A DNA stretch of 61,350 bases, taken from positions 1-61,350 of the forward strand of contig JALSLY010000031.1 of NCBI GenBank assembly GCA_026988035.1. Direction: 5' to 3'. Below, piece after piece: positions 1,090 to 60,438 of the stretch (positions within the stretch are counted from its first letter, which is position 1; each line of letters starts with the position of its first letter). The translations under genes and the position numbers were made by a program. Source of the stretch: Thermotogae bacterium (GTDB taxonomy: Bacteria > Thermotogota > Thermotogae > Mesoaciditogales > Mesoaciditogaceae). A model generated the notes under the pieces. It had not been told where the DNA came from. It ran no database searches and worked only from the letters and a program-made list of their open reading frames with translations.

Positions 1090-1285
1090 TTAACCATGCC
1101 AAACACCTTTCCCGAGTGTCGGAGGTATTCAGAACAGGCAGGTCTCCTGACTTCCGGGTCATTCTCCATCTGCGCCTTCCCAGTTTCCCAGTGGCACTTC
1201 ACAGATATTGTCGCCGGTTACAGTGGCGGGACCGTGCCGGATTTTCACCAGACTTCCCTTTTAAACTTTCGTACCTGTTCTGACA
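1090..1285 (-). ncRNA. Cobalamin riboswitch
   Basis: Read on the minus strand this leader contains the conserved cobalamin aptamer pieces: the GCCACTG core (complement of CAGTGGC near 1190), the AGTCAGGAGACCTGCCT B12-box region near 1135-1155, and a closing P1 stem formed by TCAGAACAGG (1129-1138) with CCTGTTCTGA (1274-1283). A further small hairpin near 1105-1126 could be the regulatory P13 element. With the terminator just downstream it forms a transcription-off switch for the B12 importer. The class is recognised with high confidence; the exact 5' and 3' limits are approximate. Confidence 0.92.
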
Positions 1286-1288
1286 TTC

Positions 1289-1317
1289 ATTTTAACACTT
1301 CAAAAACATTTTTCCAA
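1289..1317 (-). promoter_or_regulatory. Promoter of the riboswitch-btuF operon
   Basis: Minus-strand -35 TTGGAA (1312-1317) and -10 TAAAAT (1289-1294) are separated by 17 bases. The predicted start lies just upstream of the riboswitch P1 stem, as expected. Confidence 0.7.
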
Positions 1318-42595: not shown

Positions 42596-42624
42596 GGACA
42601 ACTCCTAATATTTTTTTCGTTAAA

Positions 42625-42653
42625 ATAATAAACTCCTCTTACCATAAAAACAA
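42625..42653 (-). promoter_or_regulatory. Promoter of the ROK-sugar importer operon
   Basis: Minus-strand TTGTTT (42648-42653) and TATTAT (42625-42630) with a 17-base spacer, 30 bases before the ROK start. Confidence 0.7.
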
Positions 42654-42744
42654 GCCTCATTTTTGTCGAATTTTTGCTGTTATAGTTGGTTGTGAGAAAT
42701 TAGCGGATATTAGAAGCCTGATGCTCAAATTCTCTTGAATTTGC

Positions 42745-44193
42745 TTAAAAAAACTTTGTTTTTGGGCTAAACAAAGTAATATTTACACTTTCAAGCTGAG
42801 ATTTTCCGATTTCTTTCACGATTGGAACAACAATCTTGGAACCTTCGCGTTTTTTATCCATATCAAGCCATTTTTCGAGAATCGGGATCTCGATTTTTTT
42901 AAAATTTAGCATCTCAACAACGTTTCTTATTCTGTCAACAATTGAAGGGCTGAATTTTTCAGACTCTACGATCATACCAATAGCAACAGCATGTCCATGC
43001 GAAATTCTGTTCTGACTTGCACTTTCTATCGCATGTGCAATCGTATGCCCAAAGTTCAAAATATGTCTGAATTTTTTATCGAACGGATCTTTACTTACCA
43101 CTTCTATTTTATCTTTCACAGCAAGTTTCACCATTTCATCAACGCTTTCAAGATTTCTCTTCAGGATTCTTTTTATATTATTTTCTATGTATTCGAAGAG
43201 TTTTTTATCGTAAACGATTCCCATCTTCAACGCTTCGACAATTCCTTCTTTGAATTTTTCATCGCTTAAACTCAGTGAAAATATTGGATTCACGAAAACC
43301 TTTGGTTTTCCAAAAGCGCCTATCAAGTTTTTAGCTCCCTTAAAATTGATTGCGAACTTCCCACCGATCGATGCATCGACCATCCCAAGTAAAGTCGTTG
43401 GCACCAGTTCAAAAGGAACTCCACGCATAAACGTTAGAGACGCAAACCCAACCGCGTCGGTAAGAGTTCCTCCACCGATTGCACGAATTCGAGATGTTCT
43501 GGAAATTCCGAAGTTTAAAAATTTCTCCCATAGTTCCTCTATACGGTTAACACTTTTGAGATCTTCTCCATCCTCAACAACAATGCCTGATGCTCCCCAA
43601 ATTCTATTGACGTTTTTTGCCAAAACAACTACGCCATCATTCGGAGGCAACGAACCATGAAAGATCTTGACTTCCTGAAAAGTATCCATTTTCTCAATTA
43701 TCTTGTCAGATACGACCTTATTCACTATCTTAGCCGCTACTTCATAAGGTGAAAGTTTGTCCGCATTGATTGTTTCAAAGAGCTTGTACAAATTCCTTCT
43801 CTTTTTTTGAAGAGACATAAAGTATGCTTTCCCTTTTTTAACCAACGGTCGCGAAGAATTTTTAACTCTTCTCCATAGCTCTTCTGGTTGAATTTCAAGG
43901 TAAAAAGTTCTCATTGCTTTGAGAATTTCCAGATTTTTCGGCTTTTCAATGACTCCTCCTCCTGTCGAAATAACAATGTTTTTGCGTCTACAAAATTTCT
44001 CAAGCAATTCCTCTTCCTTTTCTCTAAACTTCCCTTCACCATGAGTCTCAAAAAAAATAGATATCGATCCGTATCTTTTTTCAAATTCTTCATCCAAATC
44101 CACTTGAGTGAATCCAAGCATGTCAGCAAGCTTTTTCCCAATTTCACTCTTTCCACTCCCCATCATGCCAACTAAAGCAATCCTGTCATCCAT
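42745..44193 (-). CDS. aroKB: Bifunctional shikimate kinase / 3-dehydroquinate synthase
   Basis: A 482-residue fusion. Residues 1-165 are shikimate kinase (Walker A GMMGSGKS at 9-16, DLDEEFEKRYG, STGGGVIEKPKN). From about 175 it is 3-dehydroquinate synthase: AIGGGTLTDAVGFASLTFMRGV, PTTLLGMVDASIGGK, and the zinc ligands in EALKMG, HILNFGHTIAHAIE and SHGHAVAIGM. It therefore supplies pathway steps 2 and 5. The AroK-AroB fusion is known from Thermotoga. The start overlaps aroC by 8 bases, and the end carries an operon terminator inside the coding sequence. Confidence 0.95.
   Translation of the reverse strand: MDDRIALVGMMGSGKSEIGKKLADMLGFTQVDLDEEFEKRYGSISIFFETHGEGKFREKEEELLEKFCRRKNIVISTGGGVIEKPKNLEILKAMRTFYLEIQPEELWRRVKNSSRPLVKKGKAYFMSLQKKRRNLYKLFETINADKLSPYEVAAKIVNKVVSDKIIEKMDTFQEVKIFHGSLPPNDGVVVLAKNVNRIWGASGIVVEDGEDLKSVNRIEELWEKFLNFGISRTSRIRAIGGGTLTDAVGFASLTFMRGVPFELVPTTLLGMVDASIGGKFAINFKGAKNLIGAFGKPKVFVNPIFSLSLSDEKFKEGIVEALKMGIVYDKKLFEYIENNIKRILKRNLESVDEMVKLAVKDKIEVVSKDPFDKKFRHILNFGHTIAHAIESASQNRISHGHAVAIGMIVESEKFSPSIVDRIRNVVEMLNFKKIEIPILEKWLDMDKKREGSKIVVPIVKEIGKSQLESVNITLFSPKTKFF
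42746..42777 (-). terminator. Terminator of the aroF-aroKB operon, inside the aroKB end
   Basis: Minus-strand ACTTTGTTT (42770-42777 region) pairs with AAACAAAGT (42753-42761) and is followed by seven T residues (42746-42752). The stem covers the last codons of aroKB and the T-run contains its stop codon. Confidence 0.75.
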
Positions 44194-45283
44194 TTATCCT
44201 CACACGCCTTCTGTAAAGATCAACTCTCTCACAAAGTTCCTCAAATGTAGAACTGCCAAATTCCTTCATGAGTTCTGAAAACAAAACGGTTGAAAGTATC
44301 GCTCTCGATACAATGGCAACAGCTGCTACCACACATGTATCAGATCTTACGTAATTCGTGATGGTTTCCAAACCATCATTCATATCGATCGTAGTTACTC
44401 CTCTCTTTTGTGTTGGAACGGGTTTTACGAGCAGATCGATCGAAATAAGCTGACCATTCGACATTCCTCCTTCTATTCCACCTGCATGATTGGTCCTTCT
44501 CATACCTACTTTGCGTATTTCATCGATCGTTTCATAACCCTCAAGTTTGTAGGTCTCCAAAATATCTCCAAATAAAACTCCGCGTACGGAAGGTATATCA
44601 AAGAGTGCATGAGCGATCTTGGAAGTAAATCTACCTTGATAGGTATTGAACGTTCCTAACCCAATTGGAACACCACTTGCCATTACTCTGATTTTCCCGC
44701 CCAAGGAACTTCCGTTTTTTTCAGCTTCATCTATCTTTGTGATCATGAGTTTCTCAATTCTCGAATCCGGACATAACAAAGGATGTTCTTCGATCAAAGG
44801 TGTTTGTAGCGTTTCCTCATCCGTTTCAAAATTTCCAATTCCAACAGTGTATCCCCACACCTTGATCCCCACCTTTTCAAGTGCTTGCCGAAAAAATTCT
44901 CCAATTGCCACATCCATTGCGGTCCTTCTTGCACTTGCACGTTCTGTCACAATTCTTGCATCGTTAAAATCATACTTAAGCATGCCAGCAAAATCCGCGT
45001 GGCCAGGGCGTGGAACAGAAGTTTTTCGATTTGGTGGCGTCGTGGAAACGTTCTTTATAAAAAATGTTAATGGGGCACCTGATGTTTCACCATTCCACAT
45101 CCCAGAAAGTATCTCTACATGATCAGATTCGAGCTTCATTCTTGCGCCTCTGCCATAAACTAATCGTCTCAATTTTAGCGCACGGTTTATGCCTGACAAG
45201 TCAGGCTTAAAATGAGCCGGAAATCCCTCTACAATCCCAAAGAGTCCTTTCCCGTGCGAATCACCCGCTGTTGTTATTCTCAT
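44186..45283 (-). CDS. aroC: Chorismate synthase
   Basis: Last common step to chorismate, FMN-dependent elimination of phosphate from EPSP. The 365-residue chain starts MRITTAGDSHGKGLFGIVEGFPA, with the GRGARMKLESD, RPGHADFAG, ARRTAMDVA and MRRTNHAGGIEGGMSNG signatures intact. ATG start overlaps the aroA stop by 4 bases; the C-terminus overlaps aroKB by 8 bases. Confidence 0.97.
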   Translation of the reverse strand: MRITTAGDSHGKGLFGIVEGFPAHFKPDLSGINRALKLRRLVYGRGARMKLESDHVEILSGMWNGETSGAPLTFFIKNVSTTPPNRKTSVPRPGHADFAGMLKYDFNDARIVTERASARRTAMDVAIGEFFRQALEKVGIKVWGYTVGIGNFETDEETLQTPLIEEHPLLCPDSRIEKLMITKIDEAEKNGSSLGGKIRVMASGVPIGLGTFNTYQGRFTSKIAHALFDIPSVRGVLFGDILETYKLEGYETIDEIRKVGMRRTNHAGGIEGGMSNGQLISIDLLVKPVPTQKRGVTTIDMNDGLETITNYVRSDTCVVAAVAIVSRAILSTVLFSELMKEFGSSTFEELCERVDLYRRRVRING

Positions 45284-46545
45284 TTTGCAACCATCCTTTC
45301 AAGATCAGAATAAAATGAAGGATAGCTAATGGAAACACTTTCAGCTTCCCTAACATTCACACCTTGAGAACAAATTCCAGCGATACTTGCGAGCATCGCC
45401 ATTCTATGATCATTAAAAGTTTCTACCGTACCATTATGTAATAGGTGTCCACCTTCGACAACAAATCCATCTTCATGTTCTTCAACATTGGCCCCCATTT
45501 TGGACAATATTTGTACGGTAGTTTTTATCCTGTCCGATTCTTTTTTCCTGATTTCAGAAGCTCCATGTACCACCGTTTTTCCAGCCGCAAAAGCGCCTGC
45601 AAGAGCAATAAGAGGTATTTCATCTATCATTGAAGGTATTTCTTCGGCATTCACATCGATCCCATAAAGTTCGGAACTTTCGACAATGATTGTGCCATAC
45701 GGTTCAACATCTTGGTGAAAATCCACAATTTCAAATTTCGCTCCCATTCTCTTCAAAACTTCCAAAAATTTTGTTCTCGTTGGATTCAATCCCACATTTT
45801 CTATCTTAATGCGTGCATTTGGATGGCAAACTCCAAGGGTCAAAAAGAACGATGCAGATGAAAAATCCCCCACAATATTTGTACTGAACGCAGGAACAAC
45901 TGAGGGAGTCACTATCACAGAGTTGCCTTTCACTTCAACAGCATCAAATTGTTCAAGGAATCTCTCTGTGTGATCTCGACTTTTTAGAGGTTCTGTATAT
46001 ATAGAAACATCATCTCCGGCAAGAGCAGCAATGATGAATGAAGTCTTAACCTGAGCACTCGCAACTTCAGAAGTGTATTCGGCAGAATGCAAATTTCCTC
46101 CCATCACCGACATCGGAAGGTTTAAAGAACCATTTCTGCCATTTAACTTCGCTCCTAATGTTTTCAAGGGCCTCACAACCCTACCCATTGGCCTTTTCGA
46201 AAGAGAATTATCCCCATAAAGCACCACAAAAATGGGGCTTCGCGCGATCAATCCTAGAGATATCCTAGCAGTCGTACCAGAATTTCCACAAAATAAAGGA
46301 ATAGAAGGTTCAGAAAACTTAGAGGGTTGCACAACGATCTTTCCATCGTCTTCATTTACAACAGCTCCCAATTTTTTTATCACATCTATTGTCCTTCTGA
46401 TATCGTCTGATATTAGTGGATTGTATATTTTACACGTTCCAGCTGCGATCGACGCAAAGAACACGGTTCTATGCGTTATAGACTTATCCGGAGGTGGGAC
46501 AACCGTTCCTCTTATTTCTTTTGCAGCTTCTATTTTCAGCTCCAT
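45280..46545 (-). CDS. aroA: 3-phosphoshikimate 1-carboxyvinyltransferase (EPSP synthase)
   Basis: Transfers the enolpyruvyl group of PEP to shikimate 3-phosphate. The 421-residue sequence has PPDKSITHRTVFFASIAAG (Lys and Ser for substrate), the GNSGTTARISLGL loop, EVASAQVKTSFIIAAL and the C-terminal NDHRMAMLASIAG. Thr/Ala variants at the glyphosate loop (GNSGTTARI) resemble class II-like enzymes more than the E. coli GNAGTAMRPL form. It overlaps aroF by 10 bases and aroC by 4. Confidence 0.97.
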   Translation of the reverse strand: MELKIEAAKEIRGTVVPPPDKSITHRTVFFASIAAGTCKIYNPLISDDIRRTIDVIKKLGAVVNEDDGKIVVQPSKFSEPSIPLFCGNSGTTARISLGLIARSPIFVVLYGDNSLSKRPMGRVVRPLKTLGAKLNGRNGSLNLPMSVMGGNLHSAEYTSEVASAQVKTSFIIAALAGDDVSIYTEPLKSRDHTERFLEQFDAVEVKGNSVIVTPSVVPAFSTNIVGDFSSASFFLTLGVCHPNARIKIENVGLNPTRTKFLEVLKRMGAKFEIVDFHQDVEPYGTIIVESSELYGIDVNAEEIPSMIDEIPLIALAGAFAAGKTVVHGASEIRKKESDRIKTTVQILSKMGANVEEHEDGFVVEGGHLLHNGTVETFNDHRMAMLASIAGICSQGVNVREAESVSISYPSFYSDLERMVAK

Positions 46546-47555
46546 ATGAACTCCCCTATCATTTGGTACAATTTCATGCTTGCTCTGTATGTAACCTCAA
46601 ACTCTTCAAAATTCAAACTTTGTTGCCCATCTGATAATGCTTTTTCTGGATCGGGATGAACTTCTATCATTGCTCCATCTGCACCGGAAACAACTACTAC
46701 TTTTGAAAGCGGCCTAATAAGATCTCTGCGGCCAGTGGAATGGCTTAGATCCACAATAACAGGTAAGTGTGAAAGATTCTTGACAAGAGGAATTGCCGAT
46801 ATATCTAAAGTATTCCTTGTATACTTTTCAAATGTTCTTATTCCTCTTTCACAGAGAATCACTCGATCATTCCCATGATGAAAAAGATATTCTGCAGCTA
46901 ATAACCATTCCTCAATGGTTGACATAAAACCCCGCTTTAAGAGAATCGGTTTTGTCGATCCTCCTAATTTTTCCAACAGCCTAAAATTTTGCATACTGCG
47001 TGCTCCTACCTGAATCACGTCCACATATTCTTCAAAAAGGTCCAAATCTTGCTCAGACATTATTTCACTAACAACCTTCATGCCATGCTCATTGGCAACT
47101 TTCCTTAAGATTTTTAAACCCTTAACACCTAATCCTCGAAACGAATATGGAGATGTTCTCGGTTTAAAAGCACCACCTCTGAGAAACTTCACACCTAAAC
47201 CAGATAAAAACTCTGCTTCCATTTCCATTTGTTTCATCGATTCAACCGAACAAGGTCCTGCAATGAATTCAAAATTTCCATTTCCAATTTCCGCATCTCC
47301 TATGTTGATTACCGTATCTCCTGGATGAAATTCTCTCGAAACAAGTTTGAATGGTTTAAGCACAGCCACAATTTTTTCCACACAGCTGAGAGCTTCAAAA
47401 GAGTCACGTCTTTCATACACGTTGTCGCCTATTATTCCTATGATCGTTTTCTCTGCTCCTTTGGATATGTTTACATCAAAACCAAATTCTTTTGCAAGTT
47501 TCACGACCTTTGATATGTCTTCATCAGTGGTTCTAGGTTTTAAAACTACTATCAT
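46536..47555 (-). CDS. aroF: 3-deoxy-7-phosphoheptulonate (DAHP) synthase, type I-beta
   Basis: First step of the shikimate pathway, joining PEP and erythrose 4-phosphate. The 339-residue protein has an N-terminal ferredoxin-like regulatory domain (about 1-68), as in Thermotoga maritima DAHPS where it mediates Tyr/Phe inhibition, and a catalytic barrel with GPCSVESMKQ, RGGAFKPRTSPYSFRGLG, KPILLKRGF and DLSHSTGRRD. GAGG precedes the ATG. It is the first gene of the operon and lies directly behind an aromatic leader-peptide attenuator. Confidence 0.96.
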   Translation of the reverse strand: MIVVLKPRTTDEDISKVVKLAKEFGFDVNISKGAEKTIIGIIGDNVYERRDSFEALSCVEKIVAVLKPFKLVSREFHPGDTVINIGDAEIGNGNFEFIAGPCSVESMKQMEMEAEFLSGLGVKFLRGGAFKPRTSPYSFRGLGVKGLKILRKVANEHGMKVVSEIMSEQDLDLFEEYVDVIQVGARSMQNFRLLEKLGGSTKPILLKRGFMSTIEEWLLAAEYLFHHGNDRVILCERGIRTFEKYTRNTLDISAIPLVKNLSHLPVIVDLSHSTGRRDLIRPLSKVVVVSGADGAMIEVHPDPEKALSDGQQSLNFEEFEVTYRASMKLYQMIGEFIWS

Positions 47556-47573
47556 TTACCTCATCCCCTTTCA

Positions 47574-47614
47574 AATAAAAAAATCGGGGATTCCTTTGAA
47601 GGAGTCCCCGATTT
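47574..47614 (-). terminator. Attenuator terminator of the aroF operon
   Basis: A 14-bp stem on the minus strand (arms 47601-47614 and 47581-47594, one G-T pair, 6-base loop) followed by TTTTTTTATTT. It stands between the leader peptide and aroF, so transcription stops here unless the alternative hairpin forms. Confidence 0.95.
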
Positions 47615-47665
47615 ATGGTTGAATTAGTGCAAAACTAAACTTCGCACACCATAAATCGGGTGCGA
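47607..47665 (-). promoter_or_regulatory. Antiterminator and protector hairpins of the aro leader
   Basis: CCCGATTTATGG (47649-47660, minus) is exactly complementary over 12 bases to CCATAAATCGGG (47607-47618), which also holds 8 bases of the terminator stem: antiterminator and terminator exclude each other. A third hairpin, TCGCAC/GTGCGA (47660-47665 with 47642-47647), holds the antiterminator arm in its loop. The three structures are arranged as regions 1-2, 2-3 and 3-4 of a classical amino-acid attenuator. Confidence 0.88.
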
Positions 47666-47724
47666 TGATAATACCAAAAATTGTATTCAAATATCGTTGA
47701 AATCAAAAACAAAGCCATACACAT
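47635..47724 (-). CDS. Aromatic-rich leader peptide controlling the aroF operon
   Basis: A 29-codon frame from ATG 47724 to TAG 47635 (a second ATG at 47718 is possible). Codons 12-19 encode F-E-Y-N-F-W-Y-Y, with further Phe at codons 6 and 24: eight aromatic codons in 29. It lies 29 bases after the predicted transcription start; a GAGAAG-like purine run is upstream as a weak ribosome site. The stop codon lies between the two antiterminator arms, so a ribosome reaching it would block the antiterminator, whereas one stalled at codons 12-17 would cover the protector hairpin and free it. Not derived from a known database entry; the call rests on codon content and RNA geometry. Confidence 0.85.
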   Translation of the reverse strand: MCMALFLISTIFEYNFWYYHRTRFMVCEV

Positions 47725-47759
47725 CACTTTCTTCTCAAAATAAAGAACTATTGTTTTTC

Positions 47760-47788
47760 ATTTTACACCAAAGAAGAACTCTTGTCAA
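47760..47788 (-). promoter_or_regulatory. Promoter of the aro leader and operon
   Basis: Minus-strand consensus -35 TTGACA (47783-47788) and -10 TAAAAT (47760-47765) with a 17-base spacer, in the gap after aroE. Transcription would start near 47753, before the leader peptide. Confidence 0.85.
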
Positions 47789-47841
47789 ATTAAAGTCAAG
47801 AAAAAAATCACGTTGCCTTTTTGATATTTTTAAAGCGACCT

Positions 47842-48609
47842 TCAAAGCGGATAATTACCTTTCAATTCTTCTGCTAATTCTTTAAATGACCACAAGCTCA
47901 GATTCAAAATTGCCTGTTGAATGAGCATTTCATATCCATCTATTGTCCTCATACCAAGTTTCTGGGCTTGACGAAGAAATTTAGTTGGTCTTGGATTGTA
48001 TACAACATCGTAAACGAGGCACTTTTTGGAAAACCGTGAAAGATCAAGATCGGGCATTGAATCAACATTTGGATACATTCCTAAAGGAGTTGCGTTAACG
48101 ATGATCGCCACTTCAGATGGAGCAGGTATTCCAACCTGAGCATCAAACTGCTTTGCTAAAATTACAGCCTTTTCACGGGTACGATTTTCCACATACACGT
48201 TCAATCCCATATCTTTAAGGGCATAGCACACAGCGCGTGCTGCTCCACCCGCACCTATGATCACGGCACTGCTCCCATACAGTTTTCGACTTTTCACACT
48301 TTCAAGAAAGCCTTTCCAATCCGTGTTGAACCCCATTTTCCTGGAATTTACAACGTTGACAGCACCAATTTTTTCCGAATCTTCAGATACGTATTTCAAA
48401 TACGACATTATCCGCGTCTTGTACGGTATGGTAATATTAAATCCATCAAGATTCTTGATAACATCCTTGATGAGAGAATCAAAACTATTTTGAGGAATTT
48501 CTATGACTCTGTACTCCGCGTTTATTTTGTATCTTTTGAAAAGGGAGTTGTAAATTTTGGGCGACAAAGTGTGTGGAAGATGTTCTCCTATTATTCCATA
48601 GTTCAACAT
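47842..48609 (-). CDS. aroE: Shikimate dehydrogenase
   Basis: Reduces 3-dehydroshikimate with NADPH. The 255-residue sequence shows the shikimate-binding HTLSPKIYN and NITIPYKT motifs (catalytic Lys), the nucleotide loop GAGGAARAV and VNATPLGM, and the C-terminal DGYEMLIQQA. The DVVYNPRPTKFL segment is standard. It overlaps tyrA by 7 bases and is the last gene of that two-gene minus-strand operon, just upstream of the aroF promoter. Confidence 0.95.
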   Translation of the reverse strand: MLNYGIIGEHLPHTLSPKIYNSLFKRYKINAEYRVIEIPQNSFDSLIKDVIKNLDGFNITIPYKTRIMSYLKYVSEDSEKIGAVNVVNSRKMGFNTDWKGFLESVKSRKLYGSSAVIIGAGGAARAVCYALKDMGLNVYVENRTREKAVILAKQFDAQVGIPAPSEVAIIVNATPLGMYPNVDSMPDLDLSRFSKKCLVYDVVYNPRPTKFLRQAQKLGMRTIDGYEMLIQQAILNLSLWSFKELAEELKGNYPL

Positions 48610-49316
48610 TTTCTCATCTCATCCGCAATTTTTCTTATCTCGACAGCAACTTTTTCAAGAACATTAGCAACATTCTGAGAGTTATATTTTTTAAAAACTC
48701 TTCCGAGTTTCGGATTTTGATTCGCAAGTCTTGTCATAGAAGCATAACCCGGTCCGGACAGCTCTTCATAAGGAGTTCCAAGTTTTTTCAAAACGGCGGA
48801 GATGAAATATGGAGCATGACTAGTATAAGCGAGAGCTACATCGTGTTTGAAAGCTTCTGTCCATACTGCACGTGCACCAAGAATTCCAACAAATTTTTCA
48901 ACAATCTCCTTCTCACTCTCAGAGGCACTAACACTTATAAGAGCAAATGGCTTCCCGTTAAACATTTCGCTGTCCCACGAATCTGGTCCAACTCTTTCAT
49001 TTCCTGCAATTGGATGCCCACCAATAAAATTCAAACCCATCTTTCTTACTTTCTCCATAATTGGGAACTTTATCGATGCAGTATCAAGATAAAGATTATC
49101 TTTTGGAAGTTTTTCAATTTTCCTCAACAGTACAGGAACATGTAATGCAAGAATCACGAGATCGTACCCATGTCCATTAAATTCCTCACATTTGGCATTT
49201 AACAAAGCACATACTTTTGGGTCAATATCGAAAAGTTCCGGCCGTAATCCCATTTTTTGTAACTTGAGTGCTATTGAACCACCTATCTGTCCAAGACCAA
49301 CTATCGCAATTTGCAA
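48603..49316 (-). CDS. tyrA: Prephenate dehydrogenase (TyrA family)
   Basis: Converts prephenate to 4-hydroxyphenylpyruvate on the way to tyrosine (or arogenate to tyrosine). A 237-residue protein from TTG 49316 (GGAG 8 bases upstream): Rossmann GLGQIGGS at 7-14, then the TyrA signature DTASIKFPIMEKV and GGHPIAGNERVGP with the catalytic His. Frames starting up to 47 codons earlier run into the promoter region between tyrA and aroH and were not used. There is no chorismate-mutase or ACT domain; the mutase is a separate gene (aroH) on the other strand. Confidence 0.9.
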   Translation of the reverse strand: MQIAIVGLGQIGGSIALKLQKMGLRPELFDIDPKVCALLNAKCEEFNGHGYDLVILALHVPVLLRKIEKLPKDNLYLDTASIKFPIMEKVRKMGLNFIGGHPIAGNERVGPDSWDSEMFNGKPFALISVSASESEKEIVEKFVGILGARAVWTEAFKHDVALAYTSHAPYFISAVLKKLGTPYEELSGPGYASMTRLANQNPKLGRVFKKYNSQNVANVLEKVAVEIRKIADEMRKC

Positions 49317-49434
49317 ATCATCCACTCCTTTCATTGTATTTTTATTGTACCAAAGAATGTTTGATGTAGTTAAAAATCTTTCTTGTGATAGGATATAGAT
49401 CAGAATCAAAATACTTATGAGGGGAGGAATCAAA

Positions 49435-49788
49435 TTGCTGGCAATAAGAGGAGCCATCTTTGTGGATAAAGATACGCCTCAAGAGATAGAGAAAAGAACA
49501 AACCAGCTCATGAATAAGATTTTCAGCGTTAACTCTATAGAATCTGAAGAAGTAGTGGCTGTTATTTTTAGCGTAACACCTGATTTGAGATCCATGAATC
49601 CCGCTACAGTTTTCAGAAAATCTGGTCGTGCTTTCTCTTCAATGTGCTTTCAGGAAGCAGACTTTTCTCACTCTCCTAAACGAGTTTTAAGGGTGATGGT
49701 GTTACTCGAGAGAAACCGTTTTGGCAATGTGGTACACGTATACGAAAATGGTGCAGAATCTCTCAAGGAATGGAGGTGGAGTGATTGA
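49435..49788 (+). CDS. aroH: Chorismate mutase, AroH type
   Basis: A 117-residue monofunctional mutase turning chorismate into prephenate. The start LLAIRGAIFVDKDTPQEIEKRT, the middle VVAVIFSVTPDLRSMNPATVFRKSG and the RVLRVMVLLERNR strand match Bacillus subtilis AroH, including the active-site arginine in IRG and the ATPDL-like loop. TTG 49435 has GGGGAGGA 6 bases upstream; an ATG 18 bases earlier precedes that site. It overlaps aroQ by 4 bases. Confidence 0.92.
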   Translation: MLAIRGAIFVDKDTPQEIEKRTNQLMNKIFSVNSIESEEVVAVIFSVTPDLRSMNPATVFRKSGRAFSSMCFQEADFSHSPKRVLRVMVLLERNRFGNVVHVYENGAESLKEWRWSD

Positions 49789-60267: not shown

Positions 60268-60356
60268 GGAGAGATGGCCGAGTGGTCGAAGGCGCTTGCC
60301 TGCTAAGCAAGTGTAGGATTTTCCTACCGTGGGTTCAAATCCCACTCTCTCCGCCA
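60268..60356 (+). tRNA. tRNA-Ser (anticodon GCT)
   Basis: A class II tRNA with a long variable arm. Acceptor GGAGAGA pairs with TCTCTCC, followed by discriminator G and encoded CCA. The anticodon loop CTGCTAA (stem CTTGC/GCAAG) gives GCT for AGC/AGU. The variable-arm stem GTAGGA/TCCTAC and T-arm GTGGG-TTCAAAT-CCCAC are intact. Confidence 0.97.
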
Positions 60357-60361
60357 GAACT

Positions 60362-60438
60362 GTGCCCGTAGCTCAGCTGGATAGAGCGATAGATTGCGGA
60401 TCTATAGGCCGGGAGTTCAAATCTCCCCGGGCACGCCA
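60362..60438 (+). tRNA. tRNA-Arg (anticodon GCG)
   Basis: Acceptor GTGCCCG pairs with CGGGCAC; discriminator G and CCA (60436-60438) are encoded. The anticodon loop TTGCGGA within stem ATAGA/TCTAT reads GCG for CGC/CGU arginine codons. Five bases separate it from tRNA-Ser. The usual bacterial ACG (inosine) anticodon is replaced by GCG here. Confidence 0.95.

Follow-up and report, generated by a model that had tools for sequence, protein, structure and literature searches.

A predicted aromatic leader-peptide attenuator upstream of the aroF operon in Thermotogae

In the DNA analyzed here (the window, 61,350 nucleotides from a Thermotogae bacterium, genome G000), a leader on the minus strand lies directly 5' of the DAHP synthase operon, between aroE and aroF (47788-47574), and combines a short frame rich in aromatic codons with an intrinsic terminator. 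The question raised by this locus is whether a ribosome on the frame could determine if RNA polymerase enters the operon. Based on sequence comparison and RNA folding, we suggest that the leader is very likely a ribosome-mediated transcription attenuator of the E. coli trp type acting on aroF-aroA-aroC-aroKB. This function is inferred, and there are no expression, start-site or translation data.

Leader parts and the predicted switch

The operon downstream of the leader encodes DAHP synthase with an N-terminal ferredoxin-like regulatory domain (aroF, 46536..47555; PF00793, 8e-79; PF18152, 3e-22), EPSP synthase (aroA, 45280..46545; PF00275, 2e-105), chorismate synthase (aroC, 44186..45283; PF01264, 2e-89) and a shikimate kinase fused to 3-dehydroquinate synthase (aroKB, 42745..44193; PF01202, PF01761, PF24621), all on the minus strand and with overlapping gene ends. 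Upstream of the leader are aroE (47842-48609, minus strand) and, on the same strand, tyrA, while aroH and aroQ diverge from these two genes. Elsewhere, the window contains a cobalamin riboswitch (1120-1293, minus strand; RF00174, 115 bits) and two adjoining tRNA genes (60268-60435, plus strand).

The leader, all parts of which are on the minus strand, begins with a sigma-70-type promoter, TTGACA-17-TAAAAT (47760..47788), that matches 11 of 12 consensus positions and is the top-scoring site within the 6.9 kb scanned (42600-49500); it is a consensus match without a mapped start site. The leader peptide frame (47635..47724; ATG at 47724, TAG at 47637-47635) encodes MCMALFLISTIFEYNFWYYHRTRFMVCEV and has eight aromatic codons in total, with the control cluster F-E-Y-N-F-W-Y-Y at codons 12-19 (47668..47691). 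Its Shine-Dalgarno match is weak; an alternative ATG at 47718 is preceded by GTGAT, a possible Shine-Dalgarno match, and translation of the frame is inferred. Three hairpins follow. The protector (segments 1:2) spans 47642..47665 (-11.1 kcal/mol). The antiterminator (segments 2:3) spans 47607..47660 (-27.1 kcal/mol), with 13 bp between 47660-47648 and 47619-47607, and also encloses an inner hairpin at 47647-47627. The intrinsic terminator (segments 3:4; about 47577..47614; -20.5 kcal/mol) consists of a hairpin at 47614-47581 followed by T7. All three energies are predictions at 37 C. The presence of these parts and the mutual exclusivity of the three overlapping hairpins are shown by sequence and comparison, whereas termination in the cell is inferred.

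A preliminary description of the locus had claimed a consensus promoter, an aromatic-rich frame with this cluster and eight aromatic codons, and three mutually exclusive hairpins including the protector at 47642-47665 and a T-run terminator, and all of these claims held. Its perfect 12-bp antiterminator also held, with the length corrected to 13 bp. The locus meets what is expected of a leader-peptide attenuator in that codons for the pathway products are clustered, a terminator lies between the frame and the first gene, and a mutually exclusive protector and antiterminator overlap the frame; the placement of the codons such that a stall selects the antiterminator is met as a prediction of ribosome-masked folding.

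In masked folding, the RNA 3' of the ribosome was folded for each A-site codon, with the mask extending through the A-site codon plus 12 nt. In G000, a stall with W17, Y18 or Y19 in the A site is predicted to abolish the protector and open the terminator; these are the predicted effective stall codons (47676-47668). With the ribosome at codons 12-16, both protector and terminator stay, and a stall at F16 falls 2 nt short of freeing the antiterminator. Once the ribosome has moved past codon 20, the terminator is restored. The preliminary claim that stalling at codons 12-17 masks the protector therefore failed in this folding for all codons bar codon 17, the predicted codons being 17-19. Because F16 lies just outside the stall window, sensing of Phe in G000 is less certain than sensing of Tyr and Trp.

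By the same procedure, the antitermination window of the related genome G001 has the same position as in G000, and windows lie over YYYFW (family f11) and YYW (family f7) in several leaders of Thermotogaceae and Petrotogaceae, which we take to be f11 and f7, respectively, an assignment that rests on gene content and the context of the leader. The test based on full-length minimum-energy folds was too strict, the window being clear only in some leaders of Mesoaciditogaceae, Thermotogaceae and Petrotogaceae; therefore, to approximate the co-transcriptional choice, folding was cut at the terminator loop. Among 24 representative leaders, the antiterminator was below threshold in three, and the other 21 made up the register test set. 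In 14 of these 21, the last codon permitting the antiterminator in truncated folding lies at most one codon from the end of the aromatic cluster, a count that none of 20,000 random cluster placements reached. Thus, the register between cluster and switch is shown by sequence comparison, while stalling itself remains an inference. Because the minimum-energy fold of the whole G000 leader without a ribosome favors the antiterminator, the state of an untranslated leader is not settled.

In the model that we propose, a ribosome that slows down where the cluster ends in W-Y-Y would cover the protector's 5' arm. Segment 2, thus freed, would pair with segment 3 over 13 bp and take the 5' arm of the terminator, and with this arm captured, RNA polymerase would read into aroF. 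The signal sensed would be charged tRNA-Tyr, tRNA-Trp and probably tRNA-Phe; that charged tRNA is the signal and that read-through depends on charging are both inferred.

Conservation and control codons across the class

The AroF type encoded in the window was found at E <= 1e-60 in 58 of 103 genomes of class Thermotogae. By our count, 45 of these 58 genomes, spread over nine families, carry a frame with aromatic codons ahead of aroF, of aroH-aroF or of an aro-trp cluster, and in nearly all 45 a terminator between frame and gene was recognized by script or by eye. The peptides include NFWYYHRTRF in G000, NYWYYGCARF in Athalassotoga (G008), KKFFYAYWFRG in G060, NNFWWFYYAGVHP in G078 and NKYYWYFSKTPILV in f7, as well as NYYYFWFNRGTCP in f11, GCFWFYYIDTCP in f6, FEYYYYFRWGVYP before aroH in G012 and NAYSYYYNNRSICL in genus g28 of f9, the last four shown up to their stop codons. 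The N-termini are not conserved across leaders; the C-terminal parts, which also encode the first RNA segments, are more so. This class-wide conservation is shown by comparison: nine families keep the aromatic cluster, while the hairpins differ in sequence, the N-terminus varies and not even the RNA segments are constant in number. The preliminary description covered the leader of one genome; the element is in fact found throughout the class, and trpE has a Trp-only sister of it. That description had also named a refuting case, in which the hairpins persist in relatives without the aromatic codons; nine families show the opposite.

The leader is absent upstream of aroF in all examined genomes of f7 genus g10 except G086, in G065, G047 and G013, and at the nearest non-Thermotogota AroF genes found (L036-L038). 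Two f10 genomes, G034 (L049) and G095 (L149), have an f7-type leader peptide, NEYYYYYCSTPILVPL; in their relatives G096 and G078 the leader is different and AroF is shorter. Possibly, the aroF region was transferred into G034 and G095 together with its leader.

Within the window's own family, which close loci place as the one that includes Athalassotoga and Mesoaciditoga, pairing was counted over the four segments of nine aro leaders. Paired cells amount to 96% for the antiterminator, 87% for the protector and 96% for the terminator, and to 16-76% when partners are slid by 1 to 3 columns. On their own, these nine leaders give modest compensatory change at few positions, including one in the protector. 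When the family's trp leaders are counted together with its aro leaders, antiterminator helix positions 7-12 vary and yet mostly stay paired (160 of 168 cells), a count that none of 5,000 shuffles reaches.

The agreement between control codons and biosynthetic genes was tabulated for the 8-codon cluster in 21 mostly genus-level units, with G086 omitted, and is shown by this comparison. Trp codons match the presence of trpE/trpF in 20 of 21 units (Fisher p = 1.3e-4), Phe codons that of pheA in 18 of 21 (p = 0.003) and, again without G086, Tyr codons that of tyrA in all 21. The p-values are indicative only, as the units share ancestry and the genomes are drafts of 60-100% completeness. The exceptions are a Trp codon missing from the aro cluster despite trp genes (G003/G006), Phe codons despite the lack of pheA (G002, G017), and genus g28, which has pheA, yet carries Phe codons solely upstream of the cluster. 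G086 fits poorly, with a YYYY cluster, an interrupted trpE and no tyrA found. In the window's genus, G000, with trp and pheA, reads FEYNFWYY, and G001 and G002, which lack both, read EYNYGYYQ and NYGYYYFR, respectively. In relatives that lack trp or pheA genes, the cluster is mostly Tyr-only. G096, added once the pattern had been seen, carries trp, pheA and tyrA, and its cluster NYWWFYYY is as expected; G095 has EYYYYYC, like its relative G034. The preliminary claim that the operon is tuned by all three aromatic amino acids held in part: it fits G000 and the 12 of 21 units that have all three within the 8-codon window, and Tyr dominates, with 71 of the 110 aromatic residues of the clusters.

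Five-segment and Trp-only forms

The leaders of f11, f6, f4 and related leaders have five RNA segments, namely 1, GGCACCTG (the last codons); 2, GCTCCGGGCAGGTGCC; 3, CTGCCCGGAGC; 4, GCTCCGGGCAG; and 5, GGAGCCC. Counted over eight sequences from three families, helices 1:2, 2:3 and 4:5 reach 98-100% pairing and show compensatory changes, and the 3:4 antiterminator reaches 92% and shows no excess covariation. At five loci (L011, L017, L019, L020, L010), segments 2 and 4 of the leader 5' of aroF repeat each other almost exactly (GCTCCGGGCAG). In this form, a ribosome at the last codons would block segment 1, segment 2 would take segment 3, and the terminator 4:5 would form; with the ribosome stalled or absent, 1:2 would form and 3:4 would prevent termination. 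It is possible, as inferred from pairing only, that the five-segment leader is ON by default, that is, of opposite parity to E. coli trp. The f9 leaders (L028-L030, L041, L042), which are misaligned at segment 3 in the all-leader alignment, have palindromic TCCGGA segments; their antiterminator may conceivably take the 3' arm of the terminator and not the 5' arm.

A sister leader of the same design with Trp as its only aromatic control residue precedes trpE in G000 (contig C46, ~43295-43369; L065, L130, L147). It encodes NNGWWYRARC before its stop codon, and has the antiterminator CCCGGTGTTG/CAACATCGGG and the terminator ATCGGGGATCTTA. Four relatives have a Trp-only leader encoding NNNWWWYRTRC and a stop codon before a trp-operon gene resembling trpD. 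Together, these Trp-only leaders bear on what the aro leaders sense, as a control for specificity from inside the family. In f7, the Trp leaders of trpE (L074, L078, L088, L132) end in NWWWHL, one in NWWWHLG, and then carry a terminator of the GGGCATCC...GGATGCCC type. In G059 (L131), in which tyrA and pheA gave no hits, an aroF-aroB-aroA-aroC-trpE cluster is preceded by the Trp-only leader ISWWNSKTSDRWL, ending at a stop codon and with the core ISWWNSK. The shared antiterminator pattern matched the aro and trp copies alone in ten genomes, and the reversed control gave 0 matches; searching with a pattern built from the trp leader returned trpE and otherwise background alone. No such leader was found at pheA of G000 or at trpE of two Thermotogaceae genomes.

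A bolder reading takes these observations jointly: an attenuator family of the Thermotogota's own, present in most of the class, would comprise an aromatic sensor on the common pathway (for Tyr, and for Trp and Phe in genomes that make them) and a Trp-only sister on trp genes, would have had its codons edited with pathway loss and gain, and would have adopted a five-segment, default-ON form in Thermotogaceae and several other families. On balance we lean toward this reading, by a narrow margin.

Alternative readings and known systems

Among the alternatives, the one that survives best is a possible variant of our model, in which Tyr, together with Trp, is what the leader mainly senses, the Phe codons being incidental. 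The preponderance of Tyr in the clusters, the Tyr-only clusters of some relatives, and the W-Y-Y stall window of G000, with F16 just outside it, support this variant. Against it, Phe codons follow pheA in most units, and twelve units have all three amino acids in the window of eight codons.

In a second alternative, the trigger for ribosome arrest by the nascent aromatic peptide would be a free amino acid, as in TnaC, and not starvation for charged tRNA. The RNA anatomy would serve equally well, and arrest peptides are also encoded by short leader frames. However, arrest peptides keep particular residues at fixed spacing, whereas these leaders keep only the class of aromatic residues, with F, Y and W interchanging and the flanks varying; moreover, induction by surplus has the wrong sign for a biosynthetic operon. 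We consider this alternative unlikely.

Still less likely is a riboswitch or protein-bound leader with an accidental short frame. Stable conserved hairpins and a terminator would be compatible with it, but the window leader and 16 representative loci have no Rfam match, in-frame aromatic codons are kept in nine families while helix sequences diverge, and codon identity tracks the pathway genes. The T-box reading was rejected, as no T-box covariance model matched at gathering score in the window or at these 16 loci.

Chance was assessed with 2,000 dinucleotide-preserving shuffles of the leader, of which 1.1% had at least six aromatic codons in eight, 9% had five in eight, 0.25% had an inverted repeat of at least 12 bp, and one combined aromatic density with the inverted repeat. 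Aromatic codons are AT-rich, five in eight are not rare in shuffles, and decoy frames are present near other leaders, but a frame that arose by chance in AT-rich DNA ahead of an ordinary terminator is all but excluded by the low joint frequency, by the presence of TGG codons where trp genes are, and by the recurrence of the aromatic frame in nine families, a conservation that makes a chance origin untenable.

The attenuator reading, which we prefer, has no counterpart among the Rfam covariance models tried at gathering score (Trp_leader, His_leader and others), none of which matched the window leader or the 16 loci. In the open-access literature searched, we found no prior description in Thermotogota, and the main text of the T. 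maritima genome-organization paper does not mention attenuation; most subscription papers were outside this search, and an earlier report is possible. Leader-peptide attenuation has been seen mainly as a mechanism of Proteobacteria and Actinobacteria (PMC2965389, PMC3766115), and for the amino acid leaders listed in Rfam, one survey suggested that they originated in the gamma-proteobacteria (PMC3766115). A set spread through a whole class of a deep-branching, thermophilic phylum would extend the known range of this mechanism and bears on whether it is old or arose repeatedly. The agreement between codons and pathway branches would be a natural experiment in the retuning of a regulator by codon change, and leader sequences could help to predict auxotrophies.

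The histidine leaders of hisS/hisZ in bacilli (PMC2965389) also extend leader-peptide attenuation past the classical phyla; they concern histidine and Firmicutes, however, and the main text of that survey does not mention Thermotoga. The uORFC-13-1 motif before aroF of Acholeplasma, a proposed sensor of Phe incorporation (PMC8632094), is similar in having an upstream frame and an intrinsic terminator before aroF. It differs in being restricted to Acholeplasma and unassigned environmental sequences and in having a U-run coding for at least one Phe, and neither a Tyr/Trp cluster nor a Thermotogota set was reported for it (PMC8632094). A Tyr-tRNA attenuator has been attributed to aroF (PMC2659441, citing Camakaris 1980).

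Classical enterobacterial attenuators and the multivalent ilv leader have been described (PMC1183508, PMC3783181). As in the E. coli trp and pheA attenuators, the Thermotogae leader has a four-segment chain of protector, antiterminator and terminator, control codons beside segment 1, and a stop codon set such that a terminating ribosome covers segment 2. Unlike these, it belongs to another phylum, matches no Rfam leader model, and would control the common pathway and not a terminal branch, with mixed aromatic codons in place of codons for one amino acid. In this last respect it resembles the ilvGMEDA multivalent attenuator (Lawther and Hatfield 1980, cited in PMC3783181) and thrABC, which is likewise a multivalent attenuator, in that a single leader carries control codons for several end products of the pathway under its control. 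In the Thermotogae, by contrast, the set is Tyr, Trp and Phe, and it is trimmed across species to the products that each genome can make.
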